Under the pieces are notes generated by a model, which was given only the letters and a program-made list of their open reading frames with translations, searched no databases and was not told the origin of the DNA. A program made the translations under genes and the position numbers. From Mesorhizobium sp. (GTDB lineage Bacteria; Pseudomonadota; Alphaproteobacteria; Rhizobiales; Rhizobiaceae): a stretch of DNA of 64,000 nt. The stretch covers positions 1 to 64,000 of the forward strand of contig SUGL01000009.1 in assembly GCA_004963905.1 (NCBI GenBank). Reading direction: 5' to 3'. Position 1 is the stretch's first letter; each line of letters begins with the position of its first letter. Below, piece after piece: positions 30,501-48,272 of this stretch.

Positions 30501-30542
30501 AGCAGAAATAATGCACTGAAATCCCATTTAATTTCGTTTGAC
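30501..30542 (+). promoter_or_regulatory. 42-bp LysR-regulon block, copy A
   Basis: Contains AATGC at 30510-30514 and TTTCGTTTG near the right end. Aligned without gaps it is identical to copy B at 30 of 42 positions. It points toward the operon starting at 30666, ending 123 nt before it. Confidence 0.6.
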
Positions 30543-30665
30543 GAACAGAACTGTCCCCTGCTTGCTAGCAGGGCGCGAACAGGCCGTGCCAGCAACTAAA
30601 ATCGCATTTTTTTGCCGGTCTTGCAGATTTCGGCCATCGCGATTCTGATTCAACAAGGAGTTATC

Positions 30666-31082
30666 GTGGTGAAAAAGCTTGCCCTCGCAGTAGTCGTGAC
30701 AATGGCCAGTTCGTCTTGCGCTATGGCGGCGAATGAGGTCACAAAGTCTCCGCCAGCTGCTCCTTACGAACAGGTCAGCAAGCTCGTGAAATTGCCCGAC
30801 TTCCTCCCCGGCATGGGCGAGCTCTTCGTTGACCCGACTACATTGCCGGCGGGTCCGTTCCTTGCCTACGACCACCATGGCAAGCTCGTCAGCACCATTT
30901 ACATGCTACCGATCAAGGAACTCAGTCCGGACAAGCGTTTTGACAACCTCGCGGCGCCCGGAGGCAATGTCGACCATGTCGACGTCTACTACAACGCTGG
31001 CCATCCTGGGGTCCCAGAGCCACATGTCCACGTCGTGCTGTGGCATGTCCCGGTCGCTGACGAAGCGCGGGTCGCGAAATGA
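30666..31082 (+). CDS. Secreted TTHB210-like (DUF5602) domain protein
   Basis: About 138 aa. Signal peptide (KKLALAVVVTMASSSCAMA, cleavage after AMA). Mature part: LPDFLPGMGELFVDPTTLPA, GPFLAYDHHGKLVSTIYMLP, DHVDVYYNAGHPGVPEPHVH and VLWHVP. Periplasmic. The His-rich end (HPGVPEPHVHV) looks metal-binding. The pattern agrees with what I recall as the TTHB210-like family, whose function is unknown. GTG start with AAGGAG upstream. First gene of an operon with a cupredoxin; regulated, by inference, through block A. Confidence 0.7.
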   Translation: MVKKLALAVVVTMASSSCAMAANEVTKSPPAAPYEQVSKLVKLPDFLPGMGELFVDPTTLPAGPFLAYDHHGKLVSTIYMLPIKELSPDKRFDNLAAPGGNVDHVDVYYNAGHPGVPEPHVHVVLWHVPVADEARVAK

Positions 31083-31600
31083 GCCTCACACGCCGTGAGA
31101 TACTGGGCGCGGGCGGCGGTCTCGCCGCCCTCTCGCTTTCTTCTTTGGCGGTGTGGGCCGGCGAGATCGTCGAAATCGAAATGCAAGGGCGCGACGACGG
31201 TTCACACGTCTGGTTCGACCCGATCGGAATTCTGATCAAACCAGGTCAAACGGTGCGCTGGACCAATCTCAATCCTGGCAATTCGCACACGACGACGGCG
31301 TATAGTCCGGCAAACTTCGGGCGGCCTTTTCGAATGCCCAAGGCAGCGAAATCGTGGGACTCCGACTATCTCCTGCCTAACGAGACCTTTTCGGTTACCT
31401 TCGCCGAACAGGGTGTCTATGACTATTTCTGCATTCCGCATGAGCATGCTGGAATGGTCGGCCGCATCATTGTCGGCGCACCCGAGACGAACGGCTGGAC
31501 TAAACTTGCCGGGGCGAACGGCGACCTCCCGGAGGAGGCCCTCAAGGCGTTTCCGACCGTCGAAGACATCATGGCGAAAGGGATCGTCCGGCATGCCTAG
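31079..31600 (+). CDS. Tat-exported cupredoxin (plastocyanin-like)
   Basis: A 173-aa protein. Twin-arginine leader SLTRREILGAGGGLAALSL. Cupredoxin fold with type 1 copper ligands visible: His in NPGNSHTTTAY and the loop FCIPHEHAGM (Cys, His, Met). A 35-residue tail follows. It should shuttle electrons in the periplasm. ATGA overlap with the previous gene. A partner could be the GMC dehydrogenase or the oxidase; neither is proven. Confidence 0.87.
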   Translation: MSLTRREILGAGGGLAALSLSSLAVWAGEIVEIEMQGRDDGSHVWFDPIGILIKPGQTVRWTNLNPGNSHTTTAYSPANFGRPFRMPKAAKSWDSDYLLPNETFSVTFAEQGVYDYFCIPHEHAGMVGRIIVGAPETNGWTKLAGANGDLPEEALKAFPTVEDIMAKGIVRHA

Positions 31601-31607
31601 GCCATGC

Positions 31608-32570
31608 ATGACAGATACAACTATCAGTGACGGGAGAACCGAACACGACGATGCGAGCAGGAGCACGAGTTCCTGGCCGTCGTCAGTTATCGATCGATTG
31701 GGGGCGACCTTCATGGCGGGAAATATTTTTCCGAGCGAGACTCAATCACCATCCCACATGGAGCACGACGAGAGCGCTCATGTGTCGGAGATGCCTCTCG
31801 GAGTTCGAACTGCTGCCCAACAACGTGAGCGTGCGACGCATCGGCTTGCCGCTATGGGCGAGATGACTGGCGGCATTGCCCACGATTTCAGAAACCTCCT
31901 GGCGGTAATCGAATCCGGCCTGAGGCTTGCCGAGAAACGAGCCGACGAGCCCGAGAGAGTGCGGGCCTACATTGCGGCGGCGCGGGAAGGGATCGCTCGG
32001 GGGATCGAGCTGACCTCTCAGCTGCTCGCCTTCGCAAAGCATCAGGAACTCGATGCCCACGCCGGCGACTTGAATGAGTTCCTGAGGTCTTTCGAGCCTT
32101 TTCTCAGGTATGGCGCGGGACCAGACGTCAACGTCAAGCTCGAACTTGGTTCCGATATCCCGCACTGCCTGATCGATCCCGCATTTTTAGACGCAGCCGT
32201 GCTCAATCTCGTCATCAATGCGCGCGACGCCATGCCAAATGGCGGCGAGATCCGGGTCATCACCGGGCGATGGGTGCAGGCGACCGCGTCACCTGATCCG
32301 CCCGGGCCGGGAACCTACGCATACGTTCGCGTCAAAGACAACGGTTGCGGCATGCCTTCGGAGGTTCTGAAAAAGGCATTCGATCCCTTCTTCACGACAA
32401 AGGGCGAGAAGGGCACAGGAATAGGACTGTCGCACGTGCAGGCATTGGCGCAGATGGTTGGCGGCCAGATCCGCATCGCGAGCGAACGGGGTGTTGGAAC
32501 AACAGTCGACCTACTATTCCCGTCAATCCAACCGGAGGCCGACGCTTCGTCAAGAATGCCTATGGATTGA
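31608..32570 (+). CDS. Soluble sensor histidine kinase
   Basis: About 320 aa. A 90-residue N-terminus with no recognised sensor domain is followed by the H-box MGEMTGGIAHDFRNLLAVIE, N-box VLNLVINARDAMPNGGEIRV, G1 VKDNGCGM, F-box KKAFDPFFTTK and G2 GTGIGLSHVQALA. No membrane helix. No response regulator is adjacent, so its target is elsewhere. Start uncertain; ATG at 31608 is the first after the cupredoxin stop. Its 3' end overlaps the convergent LysR gene by 11 nt. Confidence 0.8.
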   Translation: MTDTTISDGRTEHDDASRSTSSWPSSVIDRLGATFMAGNIFPSETQSPSHMEHDESAHVSEMPLGVRTAAQQRERATHRLAAMGEMTGGIAHDFRNLLAVIESGLRLAEKRADEPERVRAYIAAAREGIARGIELTSQLLAFAKHQELDAHAGDLNEFLRSFEPFLRYGAGPDVNVKLELGSDIPHCLIDPAFLDAAVLNLVINARDAMPNGGEIRVITGRWVQATASPDPPGPGTYAYVRVKDNGCGMPSEVLKKAFDPFFTTKGEKGTGIGLSHVQALAQMVGGQIRIASERGVGTTVDLLFPSIQPEADASSRMPMD

Positions 32571-33414
32571 CGTCGCCGCCTACAACGGCATGCAGCCCCG
32601 CCAAGGCAGGACCTGCCACGCTCTCATCGGCATTTGCGGACTGCACCGCATAGACCGGATAGGAGAACTGCGGCATTTCGGGTACGAGGCGAAGCCGCCC
32701 CGCGGCAATGTGGGACAGAACGACGCTCATCCTGAAATACCCGGAGCCGCCAGCCGCAAGAATGTAGCTGAGCGCGAGCGGACCGAGATCAAAATAAAGA
32801 TCCGGCGCGGCCTCCGGAAAGTTGATCCCATGGTGAAGCGTGAAATCCGGTCCCCAGTCCATATACACATAGTCTGACCTGTCCGGCAGATGTGCTTCTT
32901 CGAGATCCGTCGTTACGAGCACCAGTTTCTCTTCCGTGAGCAAGTCGATCTTCAGGCCGGGCCTATGCTGCGGCGCGTACATGATTGCTATGTCGACAGT
33001 TCCGGACGCTACTTGATTGATCAAATCCTGGGGCACGTCGACGTGCACCCGAAGCGCAATATCCTGAAGCGAGCGGCGCATCCACCGGACCCAATCGAGC
33101 AGAAGGGGTTGCGCAAGGCTGACTTCGCTGCCGACCGTTAGAACGGCCCGACGTCCCGGAGGCACGGCAACCTGATGAAGTGTGCGTTGCCATAACTGGA
33201 CGAACATCGGCGCGTGGCGCAGGAACTGCTCCCCAGCCGGTGTGAGCGAGGCCCCGCCTTTATGCCGGACAAAAAGCGACCGGCCCAGCTGCTGCTCAAG
33301 ACTGCGGATACGCGCGCTCACGGTCGTCTGCGCGACGTTGAGCCGCTCCGAAGCCCGAATGAAACTTCCGGTCGAAACGATCTCGATGAAAGTACGGGCA
33401 AGCTCGATATCCAT
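32560..33414 (-). CDS. LysR-family transcriptional regulator 1
   Basis: A 284-aa LysR regulator: N-terminal winged helix MDIELARTFIEIVSTGSFIR, RLNVAQTTVSARIRSLEQQL and LFVRHKGGASLTPAGEQFL, then the effector domain. It is clearly paralogous to the LysR at 48288: both have DIxxARTF, a YVYxDWGP segment and LGPLxLSYILxAGGxGYF in the effector domain. Divergent from the subunit 3/GMC operon, with block B only 10 nt before its ATG, so it probably represses itself and activates the GMC operon. Confidence 0.9.
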   Translation of the reverse strand: MDIELARTFIEIVSTGSFIRASERLNVAQTTVSARIRSLEQQLGRSLFVRHKGGASLTPAGEQFLRHAPMFVQLWQRTLHQVAVPPGRRAVLTVGSEVSLAQPLLLDWVRWMRRSLQDIALRVHVDVPQDLINQVASGTVDIAIMYAPQHRPGLKIDLLTEEKLVLVTTDLEEAHLPDRSDYVYMDWGPDFTLHHGINFPEAAPDLYFDLGPLALSYILAAGGSGYFRMSVVLSHIAAGRLRLVPEMPQFSYPVYAVQSANADESVAGPALAGLHAVVGGDVNP

Positions 33415-33423
33415 GAGCGAGAT

Positions 33424-33465
33424 AGCATAAAAATTGCGTTCAAATGTCAATCAAATTCGTTTGCC
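33424..33465 (+). promoter_or_regulatory. 42-bp LysR-regulon block, copy B
   Basis: Carries CATAAAAATTGC on the left and AAATTCGTTTGCC on the right, and lies between LysR1 and the divergent dehydrogenase operon. 33 of 42 positions match copy C without gaps. CAAA-N4-TTTG inside it is a short inverted repeat. Confidence 0.7.
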
Positions 33466-33604
33466 AAATAGATTGCACTCCTAATACGCTCCTTAGAAAT
33501 CCACGAGGCTTAGCGCTGAATGCTGCGCAGCGCCCGGTCGGAGCAGGCTCAAGCCTTCTCCGTCCTCGCTCATCGTTTTGCCTGCAGCGTCAACAGGAGA
33601 AATC

Positions 33605-34366
33605 ATGGCGACGAGAGAGAAGAGTAGCCGGGGCGATGTAGGGCGCCGTGACTTTCTGAAGCTGTTCGGCGCGGCTGGGGCGGCAGCGGGTACCCTGCCG
33701 CTTGGCGGATCAGCATCGGCGGACGAAATCATGGCCGCGGCCACCACAGATGCGAAACATCGTCACGCCGCCGCCGAACCTCATGCCGGGAGCCCTGGCT
33801 ACGAATTCTTCAATGTCGACGAATCCGCCTTCGTCGAAGCGGCGGTCGACACGCTTATTCCCAGCGATGCAACTGGCCCCGGCGCCAAGGAACTCGGCGT
33901 GGCGACGTACATCGACCGGCAGATGGCCGGCGGATACGGCAAGGGCGACCGCCTGTATCTGGAAGGGCCGTTTGGCGAGGCTACGCCCGAGCAGGGCTAT
34001 CAACTCGCGATGACGCCCTCGGAGTTGATCCGGGCGGGCATCGCCGACGTCAATGCCGTCGTGCAGAAAAGCCACAAGAGCAGCTTCGCGGCCCTTGAGG
34101 CAAAGGATCGCGCTGCGGTGATGGCCGACCTTGACGGCAAGAAGACTGAGCTTCCGACTGTGCCGACCGCAACCTTCTTCGGTCTCCTGCTGCAGCTCAC
34201 GATCGAGGGCTATTTCGCGGACCCCATGTATGGCGGAAACAAGGACGCGGCTGCCTGGAAGATGATCGGCTTCCCCGGCGCGGATGCCATGTACACGGAC
34301 AAGATCGAACCGTTTCGGAACAGGCCATACAAGGCTGAACCGAAGGGCATCCAGGACCTGACTTGA
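33605..34366 (+). CDS. Gluconate 2-dehydrogenase subunit 3-like protein, Tat-exported
   Basis: About 253 aa. Tat leader with RRDFLKLFGAAGAAAGTLP. The mature part has FFNVDESAFVEAAVDTLIPS, GPGAKELGVATYIDRQMAGG, TFFGLLLQLTIEGYFADPMY and GGNKDAAAWKMIGFPG, the standard blocks of the small subunit of flavin-dependent membrane dehydrogenases. It carries the folded GMC subunit across the membrane. CAGGAG precedes the ATG. First gene of the operon under block B. Confidence 0.87.
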   Translation: MATREKSSRGDVGRRDFLKLFGAAGAAAGTLPLGGSASADEIMAAATTDAKHRHAAAEPHAGSPGYEFFNVDESAFVEAAVDTLIPSDATGPGAKELGVATYIDRQMAGGYGKGDRLYLEGPFGEATPEQGYQLAMTPSELIRAGIADVNAVVQKSHKSSFAALEAKDRAAVMADLDGKKTELPTVPTATFFGLLLQLTIEGYFADPMYGGNKDAAAWKMIGFPGADAMYTDKIEPFRNRPYKAEPKGIQDLT

Positions 34367-34393
34367 TCGGCGGAAGAAGAAGGAGACTTTGCC

Positions 34394-36163
34394 ATGGCCA
34401 CCAAACTGAACCCGGTCGATGTCCTGATTGTCGGTCTTGGGTGGACTGGCGGCATCATTGCCAAGGAGCTTGCGTCCACCAAGCTGAAGATCGTCGCCCT
34501 TGAGCGGGGAGGCCCGCGCGACACCAATCCGGACTTCATCGACCCTGAAATCCATGACGAACTGCGCTACGCCGCCCGCTACGACCTCATGCAGAACGTG
34601 CGGCGGGAAACCATCACATTCCGCAATAATGAATCGCAAACGGCGCTACCTATGCGTCAACTCGGCTCATTCCTGCCCGGCCAGGGCGTCGGCGGCGCCG
34701 GCGTGCACTGGAACGGCGTCACCTGGCGCTGGCTCGAATGGGATCACCAGGCGCGGAGCCGGACGATCGACAAGTACGGCGAAAAGATCATCCCCTCGGA
34801 TATGCACCTGCAGGACTGGCCGATCACCTATGACGATCTCGAACCCTATTACGACAAGTTCGAAAAGACCTGCGGCACCTCCGGCAAGGCCGGCAATCTT
34901 AACGGCAGGAAAATCGACGGTGGCAATATCTTCGAGGGATCGCGAAAGGAAGAATACCCCAATCCGCCAATGACTGCCGCGCAAAGCATGGTGATGTTCG
35001 AGAAGGCGGCCCGCAATCTCGGCTACCATCCTTTTCCCAATCCCTCGTCCAACGCGTCGCGCGATTATGTCAATCCCGATGGCGTGGCCTTCGGCCAATG
35101 CCACTATTGCGGCTTCTGCGAGCGCTTCGGCTGCGAGGCGAATGCCAAGGCCAGCCCCCATTTCACCGTCATTCCGCTGGCGCTGAAGAACTCGAATTTC
35201 GAACTGCGCACAAATTCGATCGTGCTGAAGGTCAATCTCGATTCGACCCGCAAGAAGGCGGTCAGCGTCACCTATCTCGACGCACGCGGGCGCGAATTCG
35301 AACAGCCTGCCGACCTGATCATCCTGTCGGCCTATGCGCTCGGCAACGTCAACCTGCTGCTGCAGTCGGGTATTGGCGTGCCCTACGACCCGGCAACGGG
35401 CAAGGGCGTGGTCGGCCGCAACTATGCCTATCAGTGCGGCGGCGGGGCTACCGCATTCTTCGACAAGAAGACCGTTCTGAATCGTTTCATGGGCGCCGGC
35501 GCGCTCGGCACCTGCATGGATGATTTGAACGGCGACAACTACGATTTCGTGAAGGCCGGCTACATCGGCGGAGGCGGCATCAGTTGCAGCAACTCGGGCG
35601 CTCGGCCCATCCAGTCGCACCCTACTCCACACGGCACGCCGCGTTGGGGCTCCGAATGGAAGAAGGCAGTGGTCGACAACTATGACCACGCGGCCAGCGT
35701 TGGCAATCAAGGCGCCGTGATGGCCTACAGACAGAACTATCTGAGCCTCGATCCGACCTATACCGACATCTTTGGACGTCCTCTCATGAGGATGACGTTC
35801 GATTTCCAGGATAACGAGATAAAGCAGATGAACGGTCAGGCCGACATCTGCGTGAAGATTGCCAAGGAGATGGGTGCGACCAAGGTCGATCGCACCATTC
35901 CGCCCGTGCCCTATTCCATCGTACCTTACCAGAGCACGCACAACACAGGCGGCGCAGTTTTCGGAGCCGATCCAAGCACCAGCGTCCTGAACAAATATCT
36001 TCAGGTCTGGGATGTCCCGAACGTATTCGTCACCGGCGCTTGCGTGTTTCCCCAGAACGCCGGGAAGAATCCGACCGGACCAGTAGGCGCTCTTGCGTAT
36101 TGGGCAGTGGACGCAATCAAGAACCAGTATCTGAAGAACCCCGGCCCACTGGTTCCCTCCTGA
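34394..36163 (+). CDS. GMC-family FAD oxidoreductase (gluconate/polyol dehydrogenase-like large subunit)
   Basis: A 589-aa GMC enzyme. FAD site VLIVGLGWTGGIIAKEL, the Cys-rich QCHYCGFCERFGCEANAKAS, and the C-terminal active-site region STHNTGGAVFGADPSTSVLN and NPTGPVGALAYWAVDAI with His and Asn. No own signal peptide; exported with the Tat subunit 3. It oxidises a sugar, sugar acid or polyol in the periplasm and passes electrons to cytochrome c. Substrate not determined. Confidence 0.88.
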   Translation: MATKLNPVDVLIVGLGWTGGIIAKELASTKLKIVALERGGPRDTNPDFIDPEIHDELRYAARYDLMQNVRRETITFRNNESQTALPMRQLGSFLPGQGVGGAGVHWNGVTWRWLEWDHQARSRTIDKYGEKIIPSDMHLQDWPITYDDLEPYYDKFEKTCGTSGKAGNLNGRKIDGGNIFEGSRKEEYPNPPMTAAQSMVMFEKAARNLGYHPFPNPSSNASRDYVNPDGVAFGQCHYCGFCERFGCEANAKASPHFTVIPLALKNSNFELRTNSIVLKVNLDSTRKKAVSVTYLDARGREFEQPADLIILSAYALGNVNLLLQSGIGVPYDPATGKGVVGRNYAYQCGGGATAFFDKKTVLNRFMGAGALGTCMDDLNGDNYDFVKAGYIGGGGISCSNSGARPIQSHPTPHGTPRWGSEWKKAVVDNYDHAASVGNQGAVMAYRQNYLSLDPTYTDIFGRPLMRMTFDFQDNEIKQMNGQADICVKIAKEMGATKVDRTIPPVPYSIVPYQSTHNTGGAVFGADPSTSVLNKYLQVWDVPNVFVTGACVFPQNAGKNPTGPVGALAYWAVDAIKNQYLKNPGPLVPS

Positions 36164-36167
36164 GGCT

Positions 36168-36209
36168 AGGTCTGCCGGATCCAGGTCCCGGTTTGGATCC
36201 GGCAGACCT
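36168..36209 (+). terminator. Perfect 15-bp inverted repeat after the GMC gene
   Basis: AGGTCTGCCGGATCC, 12-nt loop, and its exact complement. No clear T tract follows (GGGCGTGTTTCG), so it may stabilise or attenuate the mRNA rather than end it fully. The cytochrome c gene starts 77 nt later. Confidence 0.6.
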
Positions 36210-36285
36210 GGGCGTGTTTCGAACCCGATATTGTCCTGGGCGGGTCCGGCTGGAATCAGCCCTTAGCTCATTGAAAGAAGCAAAC

Positions 36286-36693
36286 ATGAAATCGACCATG
36301 CTTGGATTGACGACCGCGATTCTCACCGCAGTCGGCTCGGCCCATGCACAGGACCCATCTCCTGGCAACGCCGAAGCCGGTGCCGTTGTCTTCAAGAGGT
36401 GCATGGCCTGCCACAGGGTCGGCCCTGACGCAAAGAACGGGGTAGGTCCGGTCTTGAACGGGGTCGTCGGCCGAGCGGCCGGCACGTATCCGGGCTACAG
36501 CTATTCCGCAGCGAACAAGAATTCGGGTCTGACCTGGGATGAACCGACGCTGACGACCTATTTGCGCGCGCCGCGCAAACTGGTGCCAGGCACAAAGATG
36601 ACATTCGCCGGTCTCAGCAAGGACCAGGACGTCGCTGATGTGATCGCCTATCTGAAACAGTTCAACGCCCAAGGACAAAAGGCCGCCCCCTGA
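36286..36693 (+). CDS. Periplasmic class I cytochrome c (cytochrome c2/c550-like)
   Basis: About 135 aa. Signal peptide MKSTMLGLTTAILTAVGSAHA, haem site CMACH, GVGPVLNGVVGRAAGTYPGY, sixth ligand Met in VPGTKMTFAGL, closing helix VADVIAYLKQF. A typical soluble electron carrier. Position suggests it takes electrons from the GMC dehydrogenase to an oxidase. Confidence 0.9.
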   Translation: MKSTMLGLTTAILTAVGSAHAQDPSPGNAEAGAVVFKRCMACHRVGPDAKNGVGPVLNGVVGRAAGTYPGYSYSAANKNSGLTWDEPTLTTYLRAPRKLVPGTKMTFAGLSKDQDVADVIAYLKQFNAQGQKAAP

Positions 36694-36734
36694 GTCAGGG
36701 AGCGACCTGTCCCGGCTTTGCAAAGCACAATCTT

Positions 36735-36956
36735 ATGAAGTTCGTCCTGCATCAGGGACTGGGGCATTCCACGGTCCACCACATCGGCGACTACCTGCGC
36801 AGTCATGGCACCGGCCGTCACTGGATCGAGCGGTACCGCGGCGACATCTTCGTGTTCGTGTCGGATGCAGCCGACGAGGCAATCCTCAGAAACGAATTTT
36901 CCAGCCTTCTCGATGCTGTCGGCGACACGCAGACGAACGGGGCACCACGTCGATGA
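36735..36956 (+). CDS. Small hypothetical protein coupled to DUF488
   Basis: A 73-aa protein: MKFVLHQGLGHSTVHHIGDY, LRSHGTGRHWIERYRGDIFV, SDAADEAILRNEFSSLLDAV. Soluble. Not recognised. Its stop overlaps the next start (ATGA), which supports translation. No clear ribosome site. Confidence 0.5.
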   Translation: MKFVLHQGLGHSTVHHIGDYLRSHGTGRHWIERYRGDIFVFVSDAADEAILRNEFSSLLDAVGDTQTNGAPRR

Positions 36957-37324
36957 GCGGAAAAATGTTCAACGAGAGAGTAAAGTTGAAGCGGGCATAT
37001 GAGACCCCTGTTGCTGACGATGGCACGCGGGTGTTGGTTGACCGGCTTTGGCCGCGCGGGGTCAAGAAGACCGAAGCCGCCATCGACTATTGGATGAAAG
37101 AACTCGCGCCAAGCACCGAGCTTCGCAAATGGTTCGGACACGATCCAGCCCGCTGGGATGAATTCCGCCGGCGATACGCGGCGGAAATCCATCAGCATCG
37201 CGATGAACTCGGCCAGTTGCGCAGCCTCATGCAGGAGGGTGCCGTCACACTCGTCTTCTCAGCTCATGACGAGGCCCACAACGATGCCGTCGTCCTCAGA
37301 GAGATTTTGCTGGGATATCGATAG
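36953..37324 (+). CDS. DUF488 family protein
   Basis: A 123-aa protein with the DUF488 blocks [60 protein letters not shown] and [20 protein letters not shown]. Function unknown for the family. The cytoplasmic gene is unrelated in sequence detail to the longer DUF488 protein at 49188. Confidence 0.85.
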
Positions 37325-37473
37325 AGACAGTCGCGTCGCTGTGCACTGCCATTGCCTCCAAAGACATTGGGCGTGCGATCACGACAGCGAGATCAAAGTC
37401 AACTTTCTGGAACCAAACTAAAGAGATCCTCATCGAAGCATCGATGGACACGTTCACGTTGAGGAGAAAAACG

Positions 37474-38153: not shown

Positions 38154-38195
38154 ATCATAAAAATTGCTCGCAACTGCCGATTAAATTCGTTTGCA
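38154..38195 (+). promoter_or_regulatory. 42-bp LysR-regulon block, copy C
   Basis: CATAAAAATTGC then AAATTCGTTTGC in the same spacing as copy B. Ends 108 nt before the Rieske-FAD reductase ATG. Confidence 0.7.
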
Positions 38196-38303
38196 GGATG
38201 TCTGGAGTGGCGAGAAACTGTCGCTGAATTCCTATGATTAAAGAACTCCAGCTTCTCGACCGCACAAGACGCTTCCGATTCTGGAGCGCCAAGGGAGAAG
38301 GCA

Positions 38304-39839
38304 ATGGCCCAAGACCAAAGTAAGCCGACTGGACCGGATTTGAGGCAAGGCATCGCGCATGCCGACCTTCCCGACGGCGGCAAGCTGGTCGGCCGATGTG
38401 GCGACGACCAGGTGCTTCTGGTGCGTCGCGGAACCGAGGTATTCGCCGTCGGCGCGACCTGCACGCATTATGGCGGGCCGCTCGTCGACGGCCTTGTGGC
38501 GGACGATACCGTCCGCTGCCCTTGGCACCACGCGTGCTTCGATTTGCGAACAGGCGAAGCGCTGCGCGCTCCCGCATTCAATCCTCTTGGCTCATGGGCC
38601 GTCGAGCAGCGGGATGGCCGGATATTTGTCGGCGAGAGGCTCAAAAGGGCGACCTCAAAACCGCGCTCCGGGGGCCTCGGCCAGACGCCTGAGAAACTCG
38701 TCATCGCAGGCGGCGGCGCGGCGGGTTTCGCAGCCGCCGAAATGCTACGGCGCGAACAGTTCCAGGGCAGCATCGTCATGCTCAGCGACGACCAAACGCC
38801 GCCAGTCGACCGGCCGAACCTATCCAAGGACTACCTTGCCGGAAAGGCCCCGGAAGACTGGATTCCACTGCGCGGGGAGAAATTCTATTCCAAGAACAAC
38901 ATCGACCTGCGTCTCAAGACGGAAGCCGTCCACGTCGACGCCCGTTCGCGGCAGGTGGTCCTCGCGGATGGAGGAAGGATCCCCTATGACAGACTTCTGC
39001 TTGCGACGGGCGCGGAACCCGTCCGCCTGACCATCCCCGGCGCCGACCTGCCGCACGTTCACACGTTGCGCTCGTTCGCAGACTGCAAGGCGATCATCGA
39101 GCAGGCCGCCACAGCAGGTCGCGCGGTCGTGCTTGGCGCCAGTTTCATAGGGCTCGAGGTTGCCGCCGCTCTGCGCGCGCGCAATATCGAAGTTCATGTC
39201 GTGGCGCCGGAGAAGCGCCCCATGGAGCGGGTACTGGGTCCGCAAATGGGCGACTTCATCCGCGCTCTGCATGAAGAGCACGGTGTCGTGTTCCATCTGG
39301 AGGACACAGCGAGCAGCATCGAAGCCAAGAAGGTAAACCTCAGCAGTGGCGGCGCCTTGGCGGCAGATTTCGTTGTGGCCGGCGTCGGCGTAAGGCCGCG
39401 CACCAGGCTTGCCGAAGCGGCAGGGCTGACCATCGACCGCGGCATCGCCGTCAACGCCTTCCTGGAAACGAGCGAGCCGGAGATCTTCGCGGCCGGCGAC
39501 ATTGCGCGGTGGCCAGATCCCCACAGCGGCGAGAACATTCGCGTCGAGCATTGGACGGTTGCTGAAAGACAGGGGCAGACGGCGGCGCTCAACATGCTCG
39601 GACATCGCGAGAAATTCGTCGCGGTGCCGTTCTTCTGGAGCCAGCACTACGATGTTCCCATCAATTATGTCGGCCATGCCCGGCAATGGGACGAGATCGC
39701 GGTCGACGGCGACATTGCTGCCAAGGACTGCCTGCTGCGCTTCAAGCGCAAGGGGCGTACGCTGGCCGTCGCTTCAATCTTCCGCGACATCGAAAGTCTG
39801 AAGGCCGAGGTGGAAATGGAACGTCAAATGGCAACCTAG
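38304..39839 (+). CDS. Rieske [2Fe-2S] and FAD-dependent NAD(P)H oxidoreductase fusion (AIF-like)
   Basis: A 511-aa protein. Residues 1-110 are a Rieske domain with CTHYGGPL and CPWHHACF as cluster ligands. Then a pyridine-nucleotide oxidoreductase: FAD site VIAGGGAAGFAAAEML, NAD site VVLGASFIGLEVAAAL, FAD-closing FAAGDIARWP, and a C-terminal reductase domain. Resembles ferredoxin-type reductases of dioxygenase systems and AIFM3. Cytoplasmic. No oxygenase is nearby. Expected to move electrons from NAD(P)H to an unknown acceptor. Confidence 0.87.
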   Translation: MAQDQSKPTGPDLRQGIAHADLPDGGKLVGRCGDDQVLLVRRGTEVFAVGATCTHYGGPLVDGLVADDTVRCPWHHACFDLRTGEALRAPAFNPLGSWAVEQRDGRIFVGERLKRATSKPRSGGLGQTPEKLVIAGGGAAGFAAAEMLRREQFQGSIVMLSDDQTPPVDRPNLSKDYLAGKAPEDWIPLRGEKFYSKNNIDLRLKTEAVHVDARSRQVVLADGGRIPYDRLLLATGAEPVRLTIPGADLPHVHTLRSFADCKAIIEQAATAGRAVVLGASFIGLEVAAALRARNIEVHVVAPEKRPMERVLGPQMGDFIRALHEEHGVVFHLEDTASSIEAKKVNLSSGGALAADFVVAGVGVRPRTRLAEAAGLTIDRGIAVNAFLETSEPEIFAAGDIARWPDPHSGENIRVEHWTVAERQGQTAALNMLGHREKFVAVPFFWSQHYDVPINYVGHARQWDEIAVDGDIAAKDCLLRFKRKGRTLAVASIFRDIESLKAEVEMERQMAT

Positions 39840-40315: not shown

Positions 40316-41521
40316 ATGTCGATGAACACCTTGCGGCTTATCGGCGCCCTTTTCGGAGCCGTCGCCCTTTCTAGCGCGCCGGCCGTGGCGGAAGATCTTG
40401 TCCTGGGCGCCTCGGTGCAGCTTACTGGCCCGGTGGCCAATACCGGGCGCTACTACAAGGATGCCTACGAATTCACCATCGACAAGATCAATGAAGCCGG
40501 TGGCGTCAAAGTCGGCGACAAACAGTACAAGCTGGCGCTCAAGCTCTACGACAACCAGTCAGACGTAAACCTGTCGGTGCGGCAGTACACTCAGCTTATC
40601 ACTCAGGACAAGGTCAACCTGCTGCTCGGGCCGTTCGCCAGCAACTTCGCACTGGCCGATTCGGCTATTTCGGAAAAGTACCAGGTTCCCATGGTCCAGG
40701 GAGGAGGCGCTTCGGACCAGATTTTCTCGCGCAATTTCAAATACATCTTCGGGACGTTGGCGCCGGCGAGCAACTACTTCGGCTCCACCGTCGCGATGAT
40801 GAAAGAACTCGATCCCCTGCCGAAGTCGGTGGCGTTGCTCTACGCCGACGACTCCTTTGACGTGTCTGTGGCCGAGGGCGCGCGGCCGCTGCTCAGGAAT
40901 GCCGGCTTCACCATCGCGCTGGACGAGCGCTACACCTCGAACGCCAGCGACTTCAATTCGCTGCTCTCGCAAGTCAAGAACGCCAATGTCGATGCCGTGT
41001 TGATGGCGGGGCACGAAACAGAGATCCTGAACTTCGTGCGGCAGGCCAAGAGCCTTTCGGTGGCGCCAAAGCTCTATTCCTTCACCGTCGGCGTGCCGAG
41101 CGAGGATTTTCGCAAGGCCCTTGGCAAGGATGCCGACTACGCATACGGCATGACCGCCTGGCTGCCGTCGACCGATCTCAAGGACAGATGGTTCGGCGAT
41201 GCCGCCGCTTTCGCCGAGGCCTACAAGGCCAAGTACGGCTATGCGCCCGACTATCACGCCGCTTCTGGCGCTGCCGACGTCGAGGCCCTCGCACAAGCGG
41301 TCGAGGCCGCAGGTACGATCGATCCCAAGGCGGTGCGCGACGCTATCGCCAAGTTGAACTTCGACAGTCTTTACGGCGCCGTCGCCTTTGGCAAAAACGG
41401 CCAGATCAACCTGGCGCAGACGGTCGTCCAGATCCAAGACGGCAATCTCGCGGCAGTCTACGGCGGCAAGGGCTTCATCGAAAAGCCGAAATATCCGATG
41501 CCGACATGGGACGCGCGTTGA
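40316..41521 (+). CDS. ABC transporter substrate-binding protein, HAAT (branched-chain amino acid/amide) family
   Basis: A 401-aa periplasmic protein: signal [20 protein letters not shown], then [60 protein letters not shown] and [14 protein letters not shown], typical of Peripla_BP_6. Binds an amino acid, amide, urea-like or aromatic compound. Leads the permease and ATPase genes on the same strand. Confidence 0.9.
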
Positions 41522-41639
41522 GGGTACGACACTAACGGATGTCGGCCGGTTCGCCGGGTTGACACCTATCCCAAGGGCGGCGGCGCAACGAACTTGAGAC
41601 GCGCGCCGACTGGGAGAGAAAGTACGAGGGACCGACGGC

Positions 41640-42503
41640 TTGGATCTACTCGCACAAGTCCTTGTCAACGGCATTCTCTTGGGCGGGCTCTACGCGACCA
41701 TGGCGCTGGGGCTCGCTCTCGTCTGGGGCGTGCTCAACATCGTCAATCTCGCCCATGGCGCTTTCATAATGCTGGGGGCCTATCTGTCATGGTATCTCTT
41801 CCAATGTCTCGGGATTGATCCATTTCTTGGCCTGCCGATAACCGCGATCGTTATGTTCGGGGTTGGATACGCCGTGCAGCGGGGCATACTAAACCTCATC
41901 GTGCGCGCGCCGATGTTCAACACGCTGCTGGTGACCTTCGGCTTGGAGGTTGTGCTGACCTATCTGGCGCAACTGGCCTTCTCTGCAGATTTTCGCACCA
42001 TCAACCCATCCTACTCCGGTTCGAACGTCGCGATCGGTCCCGTCGTCGTTCCGATCGTGCGATTAGCCGCCTTTGGCGTCGCCATCTTGCTCGCCGTCAT
42101 GATGTGGCTGTTCCTGCTGAGGACGAGGCTCGGCCGCGCTATCCGCGCCACTGCGCAGAACCTCGTCGCAGCTCGGCTCTACGGTGTCGAGCCACGCCAT
42201 CTCTACGCCACGACCTTCGGCCTCGGGATCGGCCTGGCTGGCATCGCCGGCGGTCTTTACGGCACGGTTTCGCAGATCAATCCCTATATCGGCGCAACGT
42301 TGACGGCGAAGTGCTTCGCTATCGCCATCATCGGCGGCCTCGAAAACCCGCTCGGCGTGATTGTCGGCGGACTCGTTCTCGGTATCATCGAATCGCTTGC
42401 CATTCTTTATGTCGGCGCCACCTTCGGCGATGTTGCCAGCTTTGGGGTGCTGGTGCTGGTGCTCATTGTCAGGCCGAGCGGCCTTCTCGGGAGGACGACA
42501 TGA
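41640..42503 (+). CDS. livH: HAAT-family ABC transporter permease, LivH type
   Basis: A 287-aa membrane protein with about eight helices: VNGILLGGLYATMALGLALV, NIVNLAHGAFIMLGAYLSWY, IRATAQNLVAARLYGVEPRH and AIIGGLENPLGVIVGGLVLG. Begins at TTG (MDLLAQ), with GAGG upstream. Pairs with LivM. The symbol marks the type, not the substrate. Confidence 0.88.
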   Translation: MDLLAQVLVNGILLGGLYATMALGLALVWGVLNIVNLAHGAFIMLGAYLSWYLFQCLGIDPFLGLPITAIVMFGVGYAVQRGILNLIVRAPMFNTLLVTFGLEVVLTYLAQLAFSADFRTINPSYSGSNVAIGPVVVPIVRLAAFGVAILLAVMMWLFLLRTRLGRAIRATAQNLVAARLYGVEPRHLYATTFGLGIGLAGIAGGLYGTVSQINPYIGATLTAKCFAIAIIGGLENPLGVIVGGLVLGIIESLAILYVGATFGDVASFGVLVLVLIVRPSGLLGRTT

Positions 42504-43450
42504 ACAGTGCGATCCGCATCGCCGTCGCCCTGCTGGCGGTTGTTGCCCTCGCGGCTCTGCCCTGGTTCGCCTCGGACGTTATCGTGCAATTCGGCATTTC
42601 GACGCTGCTGCTCGCGGTGCTGGCGCAAGGGTGGAACATCATCGGCGGCTATACCGGCTATCCTTCCTTCGGCAATTCCACCTTCTTCGGCCTGGGTGCC
42701 TACGGCGTGGCGGTTGCCATGGTGCAATGGAACATGCCGTTCTGGGTCGGCATGGTCTTCGGCACCGCGATGGCGGTCAGCTTTGCCATCCTACTTGGTC
42801 TGCCGGTGCTCCGGCTGAAGGGGCATTATTTCGCCATCGCCACGCTGGCGCTGGCGCAGGTGGTTGCCGCGATCGTCTCCAACATCCCGCTTTTCGGCCA
42901 AAATATCGGCCTGGTCCTGCCGCCGGTCAACAATGACGCGATGTTCTACGAACTGTCGCTCGCGCTGCTGCTGATGGCGACCCTCACCGTCTGGTGGCTG
43001 ACGCGCAGCCGTTTCGGCTTCGGCCTTATCGCCATCCGCGAGAACGAGGAGGGTGCGGCCGTGATGGGCGTCAACACCACGCTCTACAAGGTGATGGCGT
43101 TTGCGCTTTCAGGCTTGTTCTCATCGCTCGCCGGCGGCATTCAGGCCTATTGGATTACCTTCCTCGATCCAGCTAGCGCCTTCGACATCAGCCTGAACGT
43201 CAAGATGATAATCATGGCCGTGTTCGGCGGCCCGGGAACCGTGCTCGGTCCGATCGTGGGGGCCGTCGTCCTCTCCGCCGTCTCGGAAATCCTTTCCAGC
43301 GAAGTGACCAACGCCGCGGGGCTGTTCTTCGGCATCGTCGTGGTGGCCGCAGTCGTGCTGATGCCGCGCGGACTTGCCGACATCGTCCACCACTTCCGCA
43401 AATACGGTTGGCGCTATTTCGTGCAAAACATCAGGGCGCACCGCATATGA
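42500..43450 (+). CDS. livM: HAAT-family ABC transporter permease, LivM type
   Basis: A 316-aa membrane protein: GWNIIGGYTGYPSFGNSTFF, LKGHYFAIATLALAQVVAAI, IRENEEGAAVMGVNTTLYKV, VFGGPGTVLGPIVGAVVLS. ATGA overlap with livH. Last 20 residues are hydrophilic and may contact the ATPases. Confidence 0.88.
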   Translation: MNSAIRIAVALLAVVALAALPWFASDVIVQFGISTLLLAVLAQGWNIIGGYTGYPSFGNSTFFGLGAYGVAVAMVQWNMPFWVGMVFGTAMAVSFAILLGLPVLRLKGHYFAIATLALAQVVAAIVSNIPLFGQNIGLVLPPVNNDAMFYELSLALLLMATLTVWWLTRSRFGFGLIAIRENEEGAAVMGVNTTLYKVMAFALSGLFSSLAGGIQAYWITFLDPASAFDISLNVKMIIMAVFGGPGTVLGPIVGAVVLSAVSEILSSEVTNAAGLFFGIVVVAAVVLMPRGLADIVHHFRKYGWRYFVQNIRAHRI

Positions 43451-44181
43451 GCGCGATCCTGGAAATTGTTCACGTGACGCGACGCTTCGCGGGGCTGGTC
43501 GCCGTCAACGATGTCAGTTTCGCGCTCAACGAGGGCGAGATCCTGGGAGTCATCGGTCCGAACGGCGCCGGCAAGACCACGCTGGTCGGCCTCATCAGCG
43601 GAACGCTGCCGCCGAGTTCGGGCGACATCATCTTCAAGGGACGCTCCGTTACGTCGCTGCCGGCCTTCCGACGCGCGCGACTCGGCATCGGCCGCACCTT
43701 CCAAATCATGCGTCCCTTTCCCGGCCTGTCGGTGCTCGACAACGTCGCTGTCGGCGCCCTATTCGGCTACGGAAGGGGCACTCCCGATCTCGAGGAAGCG
43801 CGCCAAAAGGCGCGCCGCAACCTCGAATTCGTGGGTCTGAGCCGGTTCGCCGATCATTTGGCCGACGAGTTGGGCGGACCTGGTCGCAAGCGTCTCGAAC
43901 TCGCCAAGGCGCTCGCCATGGAGCCGAAGCTCCTGCTTTGCGACGAGGTGATGGCCGGCCTCAACCACGTCGAGATCGACGAAGTAATCGGCGTTATCCG
44001 CAAGGTGCGCGATTCGGGCATCACCATCCTCGTCATCGAGCACGTCATCAAGGCGATCAAGAGCCTTTCCGATAGGCTGCTTGTGATCCATCACGGCGAG
44101 AAGATCGCCGACGGCGTACCCGACGCAGTTTTGTCGGACAAGACAGTGGTCGAGGCCTACCTCGGCAAGAGGCGGGCATGA
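43447..44181 (+). CDS. livG: HAAT-family ABC ATPase, LivG type
   Basis: A 244-aa ATPase. Walker A GPNGAGKTT, Walker B LLLCDEVMAGLN, switch His in VIEHVIKAIKSL. The signature region reads LGGPGRKRLELAKAL instead of LSGGQ; this variant is seen in a subset of LivG proteins. ATGA overlap with livM. Confidence 0.88.
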   Translation: MSAILEIVHVTRRFAGLVAVNDVSFALNEGEILGVIGPNGAGKTTLVGLISGTLPPSSGDIIFKGRSVTSLPAFRRARLGIGRTFQIMRPFPGLSVLDNVAVGALFGYGRGTPDLEEARQKARRNLEFVGLSRFADHLADELGGPGRKRLELAKALAMEPKLLLCDEVMAGLNHVEIDEVIGVIRKVRDSGITILVIEHVIKAIKSLSDRLLVIHHGEKIADGVPDAVLSDKTVVEAYLGKRRA

Positions 44182-44912
44182 GCGCGGCAGGGAAAGGCAC
44201 CGATGGCGCGCTGCTCAGGGTCTCCGGCCTCGGTGCCGGCTATGGCGGTATGCCGGTGCTGGACAGTGTTTCGCTCGAGGTGCGCCCGGCCGAGATCGTC
44301 GCGGTGGTCGGTTCCAACGGCGCCGGCAAGACGACCCTGCTGCGCGCGCTATCGCGCGTCATTGCCGCGACGGGTCAGATCGAGTTCAAGGGCCAGGACC
44401 TTGTGCCTATGACGGCGGACCAGGTGTTCTGCGAGGGTCTCGTCCAGGTGCCGGAAGGCCGGCAACTTTTCGACCGGATGACCGTAGAGGATAATCTCCT
44501 GATGGCCGCCGATCGCCGTTCCGACAAGGCTGTCGCCCTTGAGGATCTAAGACGCATGTATGCGCTGTTTCCTCGCCTTGGCGAACGGCGACGGCAGCTT
44601 GCCGGCTCGATGTCGGGCGGAGAGCAGCAGATGTGCGCCATGGCGCGAGCCCTTATGGCGCGGCCAATTCTGCTCGCGATCGACGAGATGAGCCTTGGTC
44701 TTGCTCCTGTGGTGATCGAGCAGTTGATGGAAGTGCTGGCGAGAATCCGCGACGAGGGAGTAACCGTGCTTCTGGTCGAGCAGGATGTGCATCTCGCACT
44801 TTCAGTTGCCGATCGCGGTTATGTGATGGAAACCGGCCGCATCGTGCACGAAGGCGCGGCCAGCGACCTGATTGACGATCCGGCAGTGCGAAAGGCCTAT
44901 CTGGGGCTCTGA
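44178..44912 (+). CDS. livF: HAAT-family ABC ATPase, LivF type
   Basis: A 244-aa ATPase. Walker A GSNGAGKTT, VQVPEGRQLFDRMTVEDNLL, signature SMSGGEQQMCAMARALM, Walker B LLAIDEMSLGLAP, switch VLLVEQDVHLAL. ATGA overlap with livG. Completes a five-gene importer. No terminator with a T tract seen; a GC hairpin lies at 45051. Confidence 0.88.
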   Translation: MSAAGKGTDGALLRVSGLGAGYGGMPVLDSVSLEVRPAEIVAVVGSNGAGKTTLLRALSRVIAATGQIEFKGQDLVPMTADQVFCEGLVQVPEGRQLFDRMTVEDNLLMAADRRSDKAVALEDLRRMYALFPRLGERRRQLAGSMSGGEQQMCAMARALMARPILLAIDEMSLGLAPVVIEQLMEVLARIRDEGVTVLLVEQDVHLALSVADRGYVMETGRIVHEGAASDLIDDPAVRKAYLGL

Positions 44913-45050
44913 CTGGGTATAGAGTCCGGTCGCTCTGCATCATGCGCAGCGCCCATTCATGGGCTGCATAGGCTTTGGTCAGCGTCCTCGAGTGAGGTTT
45001 CATCAACACGCATCACCCATCGCGTGAAACTAGGCTGTGTTAATGTCGGG

Positions 45051-45079
45051 CGGGCGTGACCGCCGCCGCGCCACGCCCG
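45051..45079. terminator. GC-rich hairpin between convergent livF and Tim44-like genes
   Basis: CGGGCGTG and CACGCCCG separated by 13 nt. Could end transcription from either side; no U-run, so weak. Confidence 0.35.
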
Positions 45080-45147
45080 GCATTCGAGGTTGACCGCCCC
45101 AAATTCGAATAGCCTGTCAGGCAAGTTCATCGAAGTTGCATATACGG

Positions 45148-45765
45148 TTAGTGGCCTTCGGTGGCGATTAACATCCAGTTGCGGTTCGTCGACGGGGTTC
45201 CACTGGCGAACGTCCAGGTATCGATCACAGCGACGACCTGCCGGGGGTCGCCGGCGACGATCGCGTCGTTGGCCGAGCGTGTGACGCTGACCACGTCGGA
45301 AACGTACCGAACAACAATCTTGGCGATGCCGTACTCCTCGAAAGCGTCGACGACTTTGGCTTCGCGCGTACCGATGAAGGTGAGCTGCAGTACCTCCTGC
45401 CGATCCTGGCGTCCTGCGATCTCTCGCCCGAACGCGTCAAATACCTCAGGCCCGACAAGGTGTCTCAAAGCCTGGATGTCGCTGTCCGCATAGGCGCGCA
45501 GGATGGCCTCATAGGCCCTCCTGGCGCCGTGCAGGAATGCGGGGAGGTCGAACTTAGGGTCGACCTCCCGAAGCGCATCCAGGGGCGTGTCCACCGAGGA
45601 CGTGTGTTCGACGCTTCCGTCCCGCCGCGCCGGCTTCGCCGCTCGCTTGGCCCTCTCGTCGTTCCAGCGCGACAGGAGCTGGCTCCAGCTGCTGATCATC
45701 GCCCAATAGAAGGCGATGATCACGACGAGCAGGATTTGGCTGTTCGGATCTGTAGTCTCGTTCAT
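45148..45765 (-). CDS. Tim44-like domain protein
   Basis: A 205-aa protein. N-terminal helix ILLVVIIAFYWAMISSW, a linker, then the Tim44 domain: DPKFDLPAFLHGARRAYEAI, LRHLVGPEVFDAFGREIAGR, IGTREAKVVDAFEEYGIAKI, DTWTFASGTPSTNRNWMLIA. Members are inner-membrane proteins of unknown bacterial role, sometimes near export or respiratory genes. The start lies 41 nt after the stop of the oxidase subunit gene, so co-transcription is likely. Confidence 0.8.
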   Translation of the reverse strand: MNETTDPNSQILLVVIIAFYWAMISSWSQLLSRWNDERAKRAAKPARRDGSVEHTSSVDTPLDALREVDPKFDLPAFLHGARRAYEAILRAYADSDIQALRHLVGPEVFDAFGREIAGRQDRQEVLQLTFIGTREAKVVDAFEEYGIAKIVVRYVSDVVSVTRSANDAIVAGDPRQVVAVIDTWTFASGTPSTNRNWMLIATEGH

Positions 45766-45806
45766 GGCATCCACCCGACGGCTTTCGTCGAAGCATGCAG
45801 TCCCGC

Positions 45807-47402
45807 TCAGCGGATGCGGGGCAGCTTTTCCCATTGATGGAAGGGAGGAGGCGAGGGCAGCTGCCACTCGAGCGTGGTTGCTCCTTCGCCCCACGGGTTG
45901 GCGCTGGCCGGGCGCTTGCGACTGAAAGCTTCCGCGACCGCGACGAAGAAGATGATCAGCCCGGCGGTCGAGATGTAGGATCCTATCGACGCGATAAAAT
46001 TCCAGCCCGCGAAGGCGTCGGGATAGTCGGCGTAGCGGCGCGGCATGCCGGCCATACCGAGGAAATGCTGCGGGAAGAAGACGAGATTGACGCCGATGAA
46101 CATCGTCCAGAAATGCAGTTTTCCCAAGACTTCGCTGTACATGTAGCCGGTCATCTTCGGGAACCAGTAATAGAAGCCCGCGAATATGGCGAATACGGCG
46201 CCGAGCGACAGCACGTAATGGAAGTGGGCGATCACGAAATAGGTGTCGTGCAGCGAGCGGTCGATACCGGGGCTGGCGACCATGATCCCAGTGACGCCGC
46301 CGATGGTGAAGAGCAGGACGAAGCCGGTCGCCCACAGCATCGGCGTCTTGAACTCGATCGACCCGCCCCACATGGTGGCCAGCCACGAAAACACCTTCAC
46401 GCCCGTGGGGACGGCGATGACCATCGAGGCGAAGGCGAAGTAGCGCTGGCTGTCGAGGGAGATGCCGGTCGTATACATATGATGCGCCCATACGAGGAAG
46501 CCGATTACGCCGATCGCCACCATCGCATAGGCCATGCCGAGATAGCCGAAGATCGGCTTCTTGGCGAAGGTCGAGATGACGTGGCTGATGATGCCGAAGC
46601 CGGGCAGGATCATGATGTAGACCTCCGGGTGACCGAAGAACCAGAACAGATGCTGGTAGAGGATCGGGTCGCCGCCGCCGTCGGGAACGAAGAATGTCGT
46701 GCCGAAGTTGCGGTCCGTGAGCAGCATCGTGATCGCGCCGGCCAGCACCGGCAGCGACATCAGCAGCATGAAGGCGGTCACCAGCATAGCCCAGGCAAAG
46801 AGGGGCATCTTGTGCATTGTCATGCCCGGCGCGCGCATGTTGAGGATCGTGGTGATGAAGTTGATCGCGCCGAGGATCGATGATGCTCCCGCAAGGTGGA
46901 TCGAAAGAATGACGAGGTCGACCGCGGGGCCCGGTTGACCGGAGGTCGAAAGCGGCGGGTAGAGCGTCCAGCCGCCGCCATGGCCAAGCGTGCCTGGCGC
47001 TCCCGGCACGAACATCGAGGTGATGAAGAGGATGAACGACGCGACTAGCAGCCAGAACGAGATGTTGTTCATGCGTGGAAACGCCATGTCGGGCGCGCCG
47101 ATCATGATCGGAACCATCCAGTTGCCGAAGCCGCCGATCAATGCCGGCATCAGGACGAAAAAGATCATGACAAGGCCGTGAGAGCTGACGACGACGTTGT
47201 AGGCCATCGGATCGCTGAATATCTGTAGCCCGGGCTCCTGGAGCTCCATCCGGATCAGCACCGAAAGCGCGGTGCCGAGTATCCCCGCCATGATCGAGAA
47301 CAGCAGATAGAGCGTCCCAATATCTTTGTGGTTGGTCGAGTACACCCACCGAACGAGAAACCGGGGCTTATGGTCATCGAACGTTGTTGCTCGGTTCGAC
47401 AT
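45807..47402 (-). CDS. ctaD: Cytochrome c oxidase subunit I (aa3 type), orphan copy
   Basis: A 531-aa orthodox A-type subunit [21 protein letters not shown] (D channel Asn and Asp), [33 protein letters not shown] (K-channel Lys), [16 protein letters not shown]. No subunit II or III gene is beside it, unlike the island copy at 14075, so partners must be elsewhere. It serves here as a built-in control showing which residues the island copy lacks. Confidence 0.92.
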
Positions 47403-47505
47403 GGTGCTCTCCTGCCTTTCATTCAGGCAAGCAGGATGGTTGCCGCGATGGACGGCGTTCAGTCGTCGTCACGATCGGGAACCAGGCGCTGTCTGCTTCG
47501 TGTTT

Positions 47506-48168
47506 TCAGTCGTCCGTGACGATTACGTCCATCGGAATGTCGTGGGGCTGCGGACGGATCGTTCGGAGCCGGCTTCCCGCGTAACCCACTCCGACCACCA
47601 GCGGCCGCCTGCGCATCGCGGCGAGCGTTCTGTCGAAGAAGCCGCCGCCATATCCCAGGCGGTAGTTCGCTCCGTCGAAGCCGACCACAGGTGCGATCAC
47701 GACATCCGGCTGGACCGATGGCCCGCGTGAGGGAACCAGGATGTTCCACACGCCGCGCTCGAGCGGGTCGCCCGGCCGCCAGACGCGGAATTCCAGCGGC
47801 CAGCCTTTCCTGATGACAACGGGAAGCGCGATCCTGCCGCCGCGTTCGATGATCTTGATCGCCCAATTGCGAAGGTCGGGCTCGCCGCGGAACGGCCAAT
47901 AGCCGCTGACGATGCGCCCGCTGACCTTGCCGATAGCAAGATCGAGGCGCGAAGCGATGCGGTCCGACCTGCCCTTCCTCTCATCGGCGTCGATGGCGAG
48001 GCGCTCCTCGATCAGCCTCTGCCGCTCCGCCTTGCGCCAGCGTGAGACGTCGCTCCAGGCCTCACCTGGTTCCGGCTGCGTGCCATCCTCGGGAGAAAAC
48101 TCATGCGCGAAGCAAGGCGGGGATGCGTATTCGTGGATTTCAGGGTCCAGGTGTCTCTTCTCGGCCAT
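47506..48168 (-). CDS. 5-formyltetrahydrofolate cyclo-ligase
   Basis: A 220-aa protein of the MTHFS family: VSGYWPFRGEPDLRNWAIKI, IALPVVIRKGWPLEFRVW, and YRLGYGGGFFDRTLAAMRRR, the phosphate-binding YGGGFFDR motif. It converts 5-formyl-THF to methenyl-THF with ATP. The first 40 residues (EIHEYASPPCFAHEFSPEDG) are an extension not needed for the core. LysR2 lies divergently and block D points at this gene, so LysR control of one-carbon flux is possible. Confidence 0.88.
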   Translation of the reverse strand: MAEKRHLDPEIHEYASPPCFAHEFSPEDGTQPEPGEAWSDVSRWRKAERQRLIEERLAIDADERKGRSDRIASRLDLAIGKVSGRIVSGYWPFRGEPDLRNWAIKIIERGGRIALPVVIRKGWPLEFRVWRPGDPLERGVWNILVPSRGPSVQPDVVIAPVVGFDGANYRLGYGGGFFDRTLAAMRRRPLVVGVGYAGSRLRTIRPQPHDIPMDVIVTDD

Positions 48169-48230
48169 CGCCAGCTCCGTATCCGTGCGCCCGACACGTT
48201 TGCTGGAACGTGCTCCGCGGGAAACAGGAA

Positions 48231-48272
48231 GGCAAACGGAATTAAATGCTGTATGAGTGCAAAATTATTGTA
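48231..48272 (-). promoter_or_regulatory. 42-bp LysR-regulon block, copy D
   Basis: On the minus strand: TTTTGC on the left, AATTCCGTTTGCC on the right, matching copy B at 26 of 42 ungapped positions. It ends 62 nt before the cyclo-ligase ATG and begins 15 nt before the LysR2 GTG, the same geometry as copy B. Confidence 0.55.

Follow-up and report, generated by a model that had tools for sequence, protein, structure and literature searches.

We find that 64,000 nucleotides of Mesorhizobium sp. DNA (assembly GCA_004963905.1, contig SUGL01000009.1, positions 1 to 64,000; hereafter the window) carry five copies of a 42-bp block, each pointing at a gene or operon and two of them also standing directly in front of the genes for two sister LysR-type regulators, LysR-B and LysR-D. 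Judged from the DNA alone, these blocks are very probably the landing sites of the sister LysR proteins encoded in the same cluster, and a LysR regulon is well supported. A preliminary description had proposed that four of the blocks (A to D) define such a regulon. Its coordinates, its pairwise identities and the letters that it gave as common to the blocks (a left TGC, a central C..T and a right AA.T.CGTTTG) were all reproduced; the observation was right, and also understated, as a fifth and weaker copy (site E) had been overlooked. The five predicted operators are as follows.

30501..30542, plus strand: site A, predicted operator before the TTHB210/DUF5602-like, cupredoxin and sensor kinase genes (block comparison, pattern, model)
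33424..33465, plus strand: site B, predicted operator between LysR-B and the Gluconate_2-dh3/GMC/cytochrome c operon (block comparison, pattern, model)
38154..38195, plus strand: site C, predicted operator before the Rieske-FAD reductase (block comparison, pattern, model)
48231..48272, minus strand: site D, predicted operator between LysR-D and the cyclo-ligase/ctaD operon (block comparison, pattern, model)
51993..52034, plus strand: site E, predicted operator heading the CBS-BON/truncated-globin/ferredoxin operon (pattern; model E 0.0128)

Aligned without gaps, blocks B and C share 33 of 42 positions, A and B 30, A and D 29, A and C 28, B and D 26, and C and D 24, and site E matches B at 29/42; in other registers (offsets of at most 4) the block pairs reach at most 17/42. 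Apart from the sites, the best matches to copy B in the window are its own reverse complement (24/42) and then 23/42. The pattern CANNAANNNTGCNNNNANNNNNCNNTNAANTNCGTTTG, which has 19 fixed letters, finds five matches in the whole genome (7,056,689 bp) when up to three mismatches are allowed, all inside the window, while the same pattern read backwards as a control finds one. A sequence model (R1) built from 43 of 84 picked sites, all from genomes other than this one, recovers the same five sites in the genome with E values from 8.9e-10 to 0.0128, the next match having E 2.54. The five matches lie in one cluster within about 21.5 kb, and their promoters would make up the whole regulon of the 7.06-Mb genome.

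The two regulators encoded in the cluster are:

32560..33414, minus strand: LysR-B, HdfR-like (PF00126, PF03466; HdfR model E 2.8e-34, 118.8 bits)
48288..49133, plus strand: LysR-D, HdfR-like, 50% identical to LysR-B (domain match; HdfR model E 4.2e-37, 128 bits)

Both have the N-terminal HTH_1 and C-terminal LysR_substrate domains, above gathering scores, that mark LysR-type proteins of about 280-300 aa. The spacing reported earlier between block D and its regulator, 15 nt, is exact for a GTG start at 48288 (plus strand; the alternative start is an in-frame ATG at 48276), whereas block B lies 9 nt, rather than 10, from the LysR-B start at 33414 (minus strand). HdfR of Escherichia coli and Salmonella is the best full-length NCBIfam match of both proteins, shares 30-31% identity with them and likewise has its gene beside a divergent one. 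However, their 118.8 and 128 bits fall short of the NCBIfam equivalog cut-off of 240, which places neither protein in HdfR itself, and the known HdfR targets, std and maoP, are unrelated. Use of the same operator by E. coli HdfR was considered and rejected: the hdfR-maoP interval scores 11.1 with a site matrix, the reversed matrix scores 17.9 elsewhere in the same 6 kb, and a gapped alignment is weak, being equalled in 5 of 1000 shuffles, so that no shared operator is claimed. A third LysR, 38% identical, is encoded at G000:C55:56329-57156 (minus strand), and 34-39% homologs are found in many Mesorhizobium that have no block.

The block and this LysR subfamily occur together across the genus. 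We examined 90 Mesorhizobium genomes, this one included, counting as a site any match with at most two mismatches and as LysR-B or LysR-D any homolog of at least 47% identity. Sites are present in 23 genomes and LysR-B or LysR-D in 21, all of them among the 23, and 67 genomes have neither. The block is absent from 45 of the 46 genomes whose only LysR homolog is 34-39% identical, and thus is specific to the subfamily. Among 29 LysR genes of at least 50% identity in 150 genomes, 28 have the block 11-27 bp before their start, on the opposite strand. The blocks are also conserved upstream of orthologous target genes: when the sites are sorted by target gene, identity within the block is 0.77-0.89, against 0.26-0.44 in the 60 bp before and 0.40-0.73 in the 20 bp after (block versus upstream: A, 0.87 and 0.26-0.34; B, 0.87 and 0.42-0.44; C, 0.83 and 0.28-0.36; D, 0.89 and 0.30-0.40; E, 0.77 and 0.33-0.42). 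Genome G027 carries part of the cluster twice, and each of the two contigs has LysR-D together with sites C, D and E (L081 and L082 on G027:C22; L083 on G027:C5). G036 has eight pattern matches in about 61 kb (L077-L080, G036:C1:665696-726313); a flavodoxin-FAD reductase and a BON protein are among the genes they precede.

The association extends beyond the genus. In the best 80 of 271 loci selected by similarity to LysR-B, a matrix trained on Mesorhizobium sites (threshold at least 20 bits, within 170 bp upstream of the LysR) finds a site upstream of the HdfR-like LysR in 50, all in one orientation, and the reversed matrix in 0/80. Seven of these loci (L094, L095, L098, L100, L103-L105) lie on what are, judged by length, the contigs of training loci; they were kept in the 80 and left out of the table of 178 sites used below. 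The proportion declines with falling LysR identity class (25/26, 14/18, 9/21 and 2/15) and is 34/64 among loci not named Mesorhizobium. One Variovorax and one Aminobacter plasmid also carry a site before the LysR. Anywhere in the locus, sites of at least 25 bits occur in 68 of the 80, and matches of at least 14 bits number 180, versus 3 for the reversed matrix. When 189 other alphaproteobacterial genomes, sampled evenly, were scanned with the model, starting from the site rather than the LysR and under stricter filters that lose weak matches, a single match was obtained, 164 bp from a LysR that is 49-51% identical to B and D. The block thus adjoins, and diverges from, its regulator gene as LysR-type operators do, both in the 50 of 80 loci and in the 28 of 29 closer genes.

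Block and target promoter stand in a fixed relation: the final TTG of the block is the start of a predicted -35 element, and in most sites a -10 of the form nAnnnT follows at 17 bp. Among 91 sites with non-redundant downstream sequence, aligned with the TTG at places 36-38, 56 combine A at place 60 with T at place 64, a spacing of 17 bp from the TTG, versus a mean of 4.9 and a maximum of 12 in 1000 shuffles; the register holds in 15/26 Mesorhizobium sites and in 41/65 other loci. The A and T at these places are the two best-kept letters of the sigma-70 -10. A sigma-70 arrangement, with a TTG-type -35 and the second-place A and sixth-place T of the -10 at 16-18 bp, is therefore found, and three of the five window sites (C, D and E) fit it at 17 bp. 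The predicted core promoters are:

30538..30566, plus strand: site A, -35 TTGACG (30538-30543), 17 bp, weak -10 CTTGCT (30561-30566)
33461..33490, plus strand: site B, -35 TTGCCA (33461-33466), 18 bp, -10 TACGCT (33485-33490)
38191..38219, plus strand: site C, -35 TTGCAG (38191-38196), 17 bp, -10 GAAACT (38214-38219)
48207..48235, minus strand: site D, -35 TTGCCT (48235-48230), 17 bp, -10 CACGTT (48212-48207)
52030..52058, plus strand: site E, -35 TTGTTT (52030-52035), 17 bp, -10 GAAGGT (52053-52058)

Within the block, the letters kept over the 178 sites are CA (1-2), TG (10-11), A (17), CA (23-24) and TT C.TTTG (31-38). Dyads are centred at 6, 17, 19.5 and 30.5, with direct-repeat periods of 11 and 22; the third and fourth best dyads are rare, each matched by 1 of 2000 column permutations. 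The kept spacings are CA-N7-TG (joint frequency 0.89) and T-N13-A (0.80). With a transcription start 7 nt past the predicted -10, the dyad centres would fall at -65, -54 and -40.5. This anatomy resembles the tetramer operators of OccR, IlvY and OxyR, which cover about 40-60 bp with overlapping inverted repeats, have a divergent regulator gene and place a distal repeat near -65 and a proximal part at -35 (PMC5002191, PMC8407307), positions that are here reckoned from a predicted transcription start. In the published layout of OccR, two repeats stand at -64 and -33, and a third, weaker one lies between them (PMC5002191). Another published layout has its box around -65 and the proximal site over the -35 and -10, the spacing of the box varying in some operators (PMC8407307). 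Unlike these operators, the block sites stand in a fixed ungapped register over about 65 bp that includes the -10, have no T-N11-A in a kept register, and have their proximal dyad at about -40 instead of -33.

Based on these data, we propose with good confidence that a small HdfR-like subfamily of LysR proteins would bind each block as a tetramer, and that this operator is held in fixed register with the core promoter of its target gene. A first LysR dimer would sit on the left arm (GCA-N7-TGC), centred about -65 from the predicted transcription start, and a second on one of the overlapping right-hand dyads, with centres about -54 and -40. The TTG at the right end of the operator would double as the beginning of the -35, 17 bp from a weak sigma-70-type -10, and once an effector is bound, the second dimer would move and so open this weak promoter to RNA polymerase. 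The left side of the operator, 8-27 bp before the LysR starts, would provide autoregulation.

A number of observations weigh against a LysR operator of this kind. The LysR-B gene of G036 has no block in front of it, and G002 and G057 keep a site although they have neither LysR-B nor LysR-D. Sites and LysR genes move as one cluster, and their co-occurrence is in part plain linkage. Beyond the genus, 30 of the 80 LysR loci have no upstream site, and in the 40-50% identity class such loci make up 13 of 15. Two sites of the window depart from the standard -10 register: A has no A at the required place, and B fits at 18 bp. The best single dyad is matched by 234 of 2000 column permutations and hence is unremarkable, and no register retains the classic T-N11-A box across the sites (best joint frequency 0.29). 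It should be noted that the orphan site of G002 (L189, 6832) stands beside two GreA-type genes, and that of G057 is at L190, 7092.

Which regulator reads which site is less certain. The preliminary description had proposed one regulon read by both LysR proteins; the LysR regulon stands, whereas reading of all the sites by both proteins is at most likely: the presence of A and B follows that of LysR-B, D and E go with LysR-D, and C occurs with either. It is conceivable, and we give it somewhat less than even weight, that there is no single regulon and that each LysR reads its own module, LysR-B acting on A and B (and C) and LysR-D on D and E (and C). With site classes assigned by eye, site A is present in 11/11 LysR-B genomes and 0/10 LysR-D-only genomes, B-type sites precede LysR-B in 10/11 LysR-B genomes, and site D is present in 17/18 LysR-D genomes; G015 and G019, which have LysR-B only, keep A and B alone. 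However, the modules are physically linked, so such tracking is expected under either reading, and the recognition helices of the two proteins are nearly alike (QTTVSARIR). Site C is found in 9/11 LysR-B and 3/10 LysR-D-only genomes, and in G089, which has LysR-D only, it is identical over 38 bp to that of the window, where both LysRs are present. Genome G052 has an intact LysR-B and retains a D site before ctaD beside mere remnants of LysR-D. These remnants are short fragments (L191, G052:C220, 7776-7962 and 7982-8021), and the intact D-type site now lies directly before ctaD. From such comparisons, cross-reading of the sites by both LysRs appears likely.

A different view would take the block mainly as the promoter of a particular sigma factor, such as the ECF sigma factor whose gene adjoins the cluster in other Mesorhizobium, and not as a LysR operator. 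An ECF-type sigma gene is in or beside the cluster in some relatives (14/104 loci), and the TTG that ends the block does resemble a -35 and is followed at a set distance by a -10. We consider this improbable, since conservation reaches back about 38 bp from the -35, the sigma-70-like -10 is weak, with only two of six places kept, and LysR starts rather than sigma genes mark the sites across loci, though these loci were chosen by LysR. The sole sigma gene found, in a search confined to the window, is 29% identical and 50 kb away. In Mesorhizobium sp. B2-1-8, a sigma factor gene and folE adjoin the cluster (L171, 66-1461); tblastn of that sigma protein did not find its gene in the window. An origin of the blocks from a mobile or repeated element that has spread, as five similar copies in one cluster might suggest, can be rejected with near certainty, given that the genome holds no further copies, that the flanks are unrelated yet orthologous sites are kept across species, and that on the B2-1-8 plasmid 5/5 sites are intergenic and point at a coding sequence (CDS) start.

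The genes that the LysR operators would control are the following.

30612..31082, plus strand: TTHB210-like (DUF5602) secreted protein (PF18197, E 1.6e-07; DUF5602 in the orthologous plasmid annotation); open reading frame (ORF) as listed, likely start near 30669
31079..31600, plus strand: cupredoxin (PF00127)
33578..34366, plus strand: gluconate 2-dehydrogenase subunit 3-like protein (PF13618); ORF as listed, likely start near 33605
34394..36163, plus strand: GMC oxidoreductase (weak NCBIfam GMC-type matches only)
36130..36693, plus strand: cytochrome c, frame as translated (PF00034; NF043008 below cut-off)
38304..39839, plus strand: Rieske-FAD reductase (PF00355, PF07992)
45807..47402, minus strand: CtaD, cytochrome c oxidase subunit I (TIGR02891, 731.8 bits, above the cut-off of 670.75)
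47506..48168, minus strand: 5-formyltetrahydrofolate cyclo-ligase (PF01812; TIGR02727 above cut-off)
52144..52917, plus strand: CBS-BON protein (PF00571, PF04972), then truncated globin and FdxA-like ferredoxin, named from the equivalent annotated plasmid

The equivalent cluster lies on a 494-kb plasmid of Mesorhizobium sp. B2-1-8, whose gene table is known to be incomplete. There the five operons are annotated as DUF5602-cupredoxin-kinase; TAT/subunit 3 and cytochrome c with others; FAD oxidoreductase; cyclo-ligase, ctaD and Tim44-like; and hypothetical, CBS, group III truncated hemoglobin, FdxA and hydantoinase. The ctaD gene of the window appears to stand without genes for subunits II and III, and the plasmid annotation lists none beside its equivalent, although no search for these subunits was made. 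Matched to window proteins, the genes downstream of the 178 sites are Rieske-FAD (21), CBS (19), cyclo-ligase (15), TTHB210 (14), subunit 3 (14), COX1 (4) and few others, 84 of the 178 ORFs delivered by a crude caller having no match to any window protein. Examples tested elsewhere comprise COX1 in Hyphomicrobium and Pseudomonas, XdhC-type genes in three loci, a flavodoxin-FAD reductase in two, HPP-CBS in Pseudomonas japonica and Verticiella, and a cyclopropane synthase-like gene in Herminiimonas. The link to one-carbon metabolism proposed earlier is weak, as the cyclo-ligase heads an operon with the orphan ctaD and, on the plasmid, a Tim44-like gene. Given this company, and the CBS-BON, truncated-globin and ferredoxin genes headed by site E, the common theme of the targets looks respiratory or redox.

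We found no description of this regulon in the open-licence papers searched. Overall, the block is very probably a genuine and well-conserved LysR operator that is fused to its promoter and defines a local regulon. Taking the observations together, we tentatively suggest, at somewhat less than even confidence, that an undescribed and ancient LysR subfamily, with members in rhizobia, Acetobacteraceae, Pseudomonas, Verticiella and Variovorax, may act where operator and promoter are rigidly joined in a cassette of about 65 bp. In it, three dyads spaced by roughly a helical turn would lead directly into the -35, and one half-site would be common to regulator and RNA polymerase. Mesorhizobium would use this cassette five to eight times in one transferable cluster, as a self-contained respiratory or redox response read jointly by two sister regulators. 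From the sites, a strong model of the binding site can be computed for a LysR group that has no assigned function, and they tie into one regulon a set of orphan genes that includes the orphan ctaD and those for the CBS-BON and HPP-CBS proteins, the TTHB210-like protein, the GMC dehydrogenase and the Rieske-FAD reductase. With their common geometry, the 91 distinct promoters also form a natural series on which the sliding-dimer model of LysR activation can be tested.

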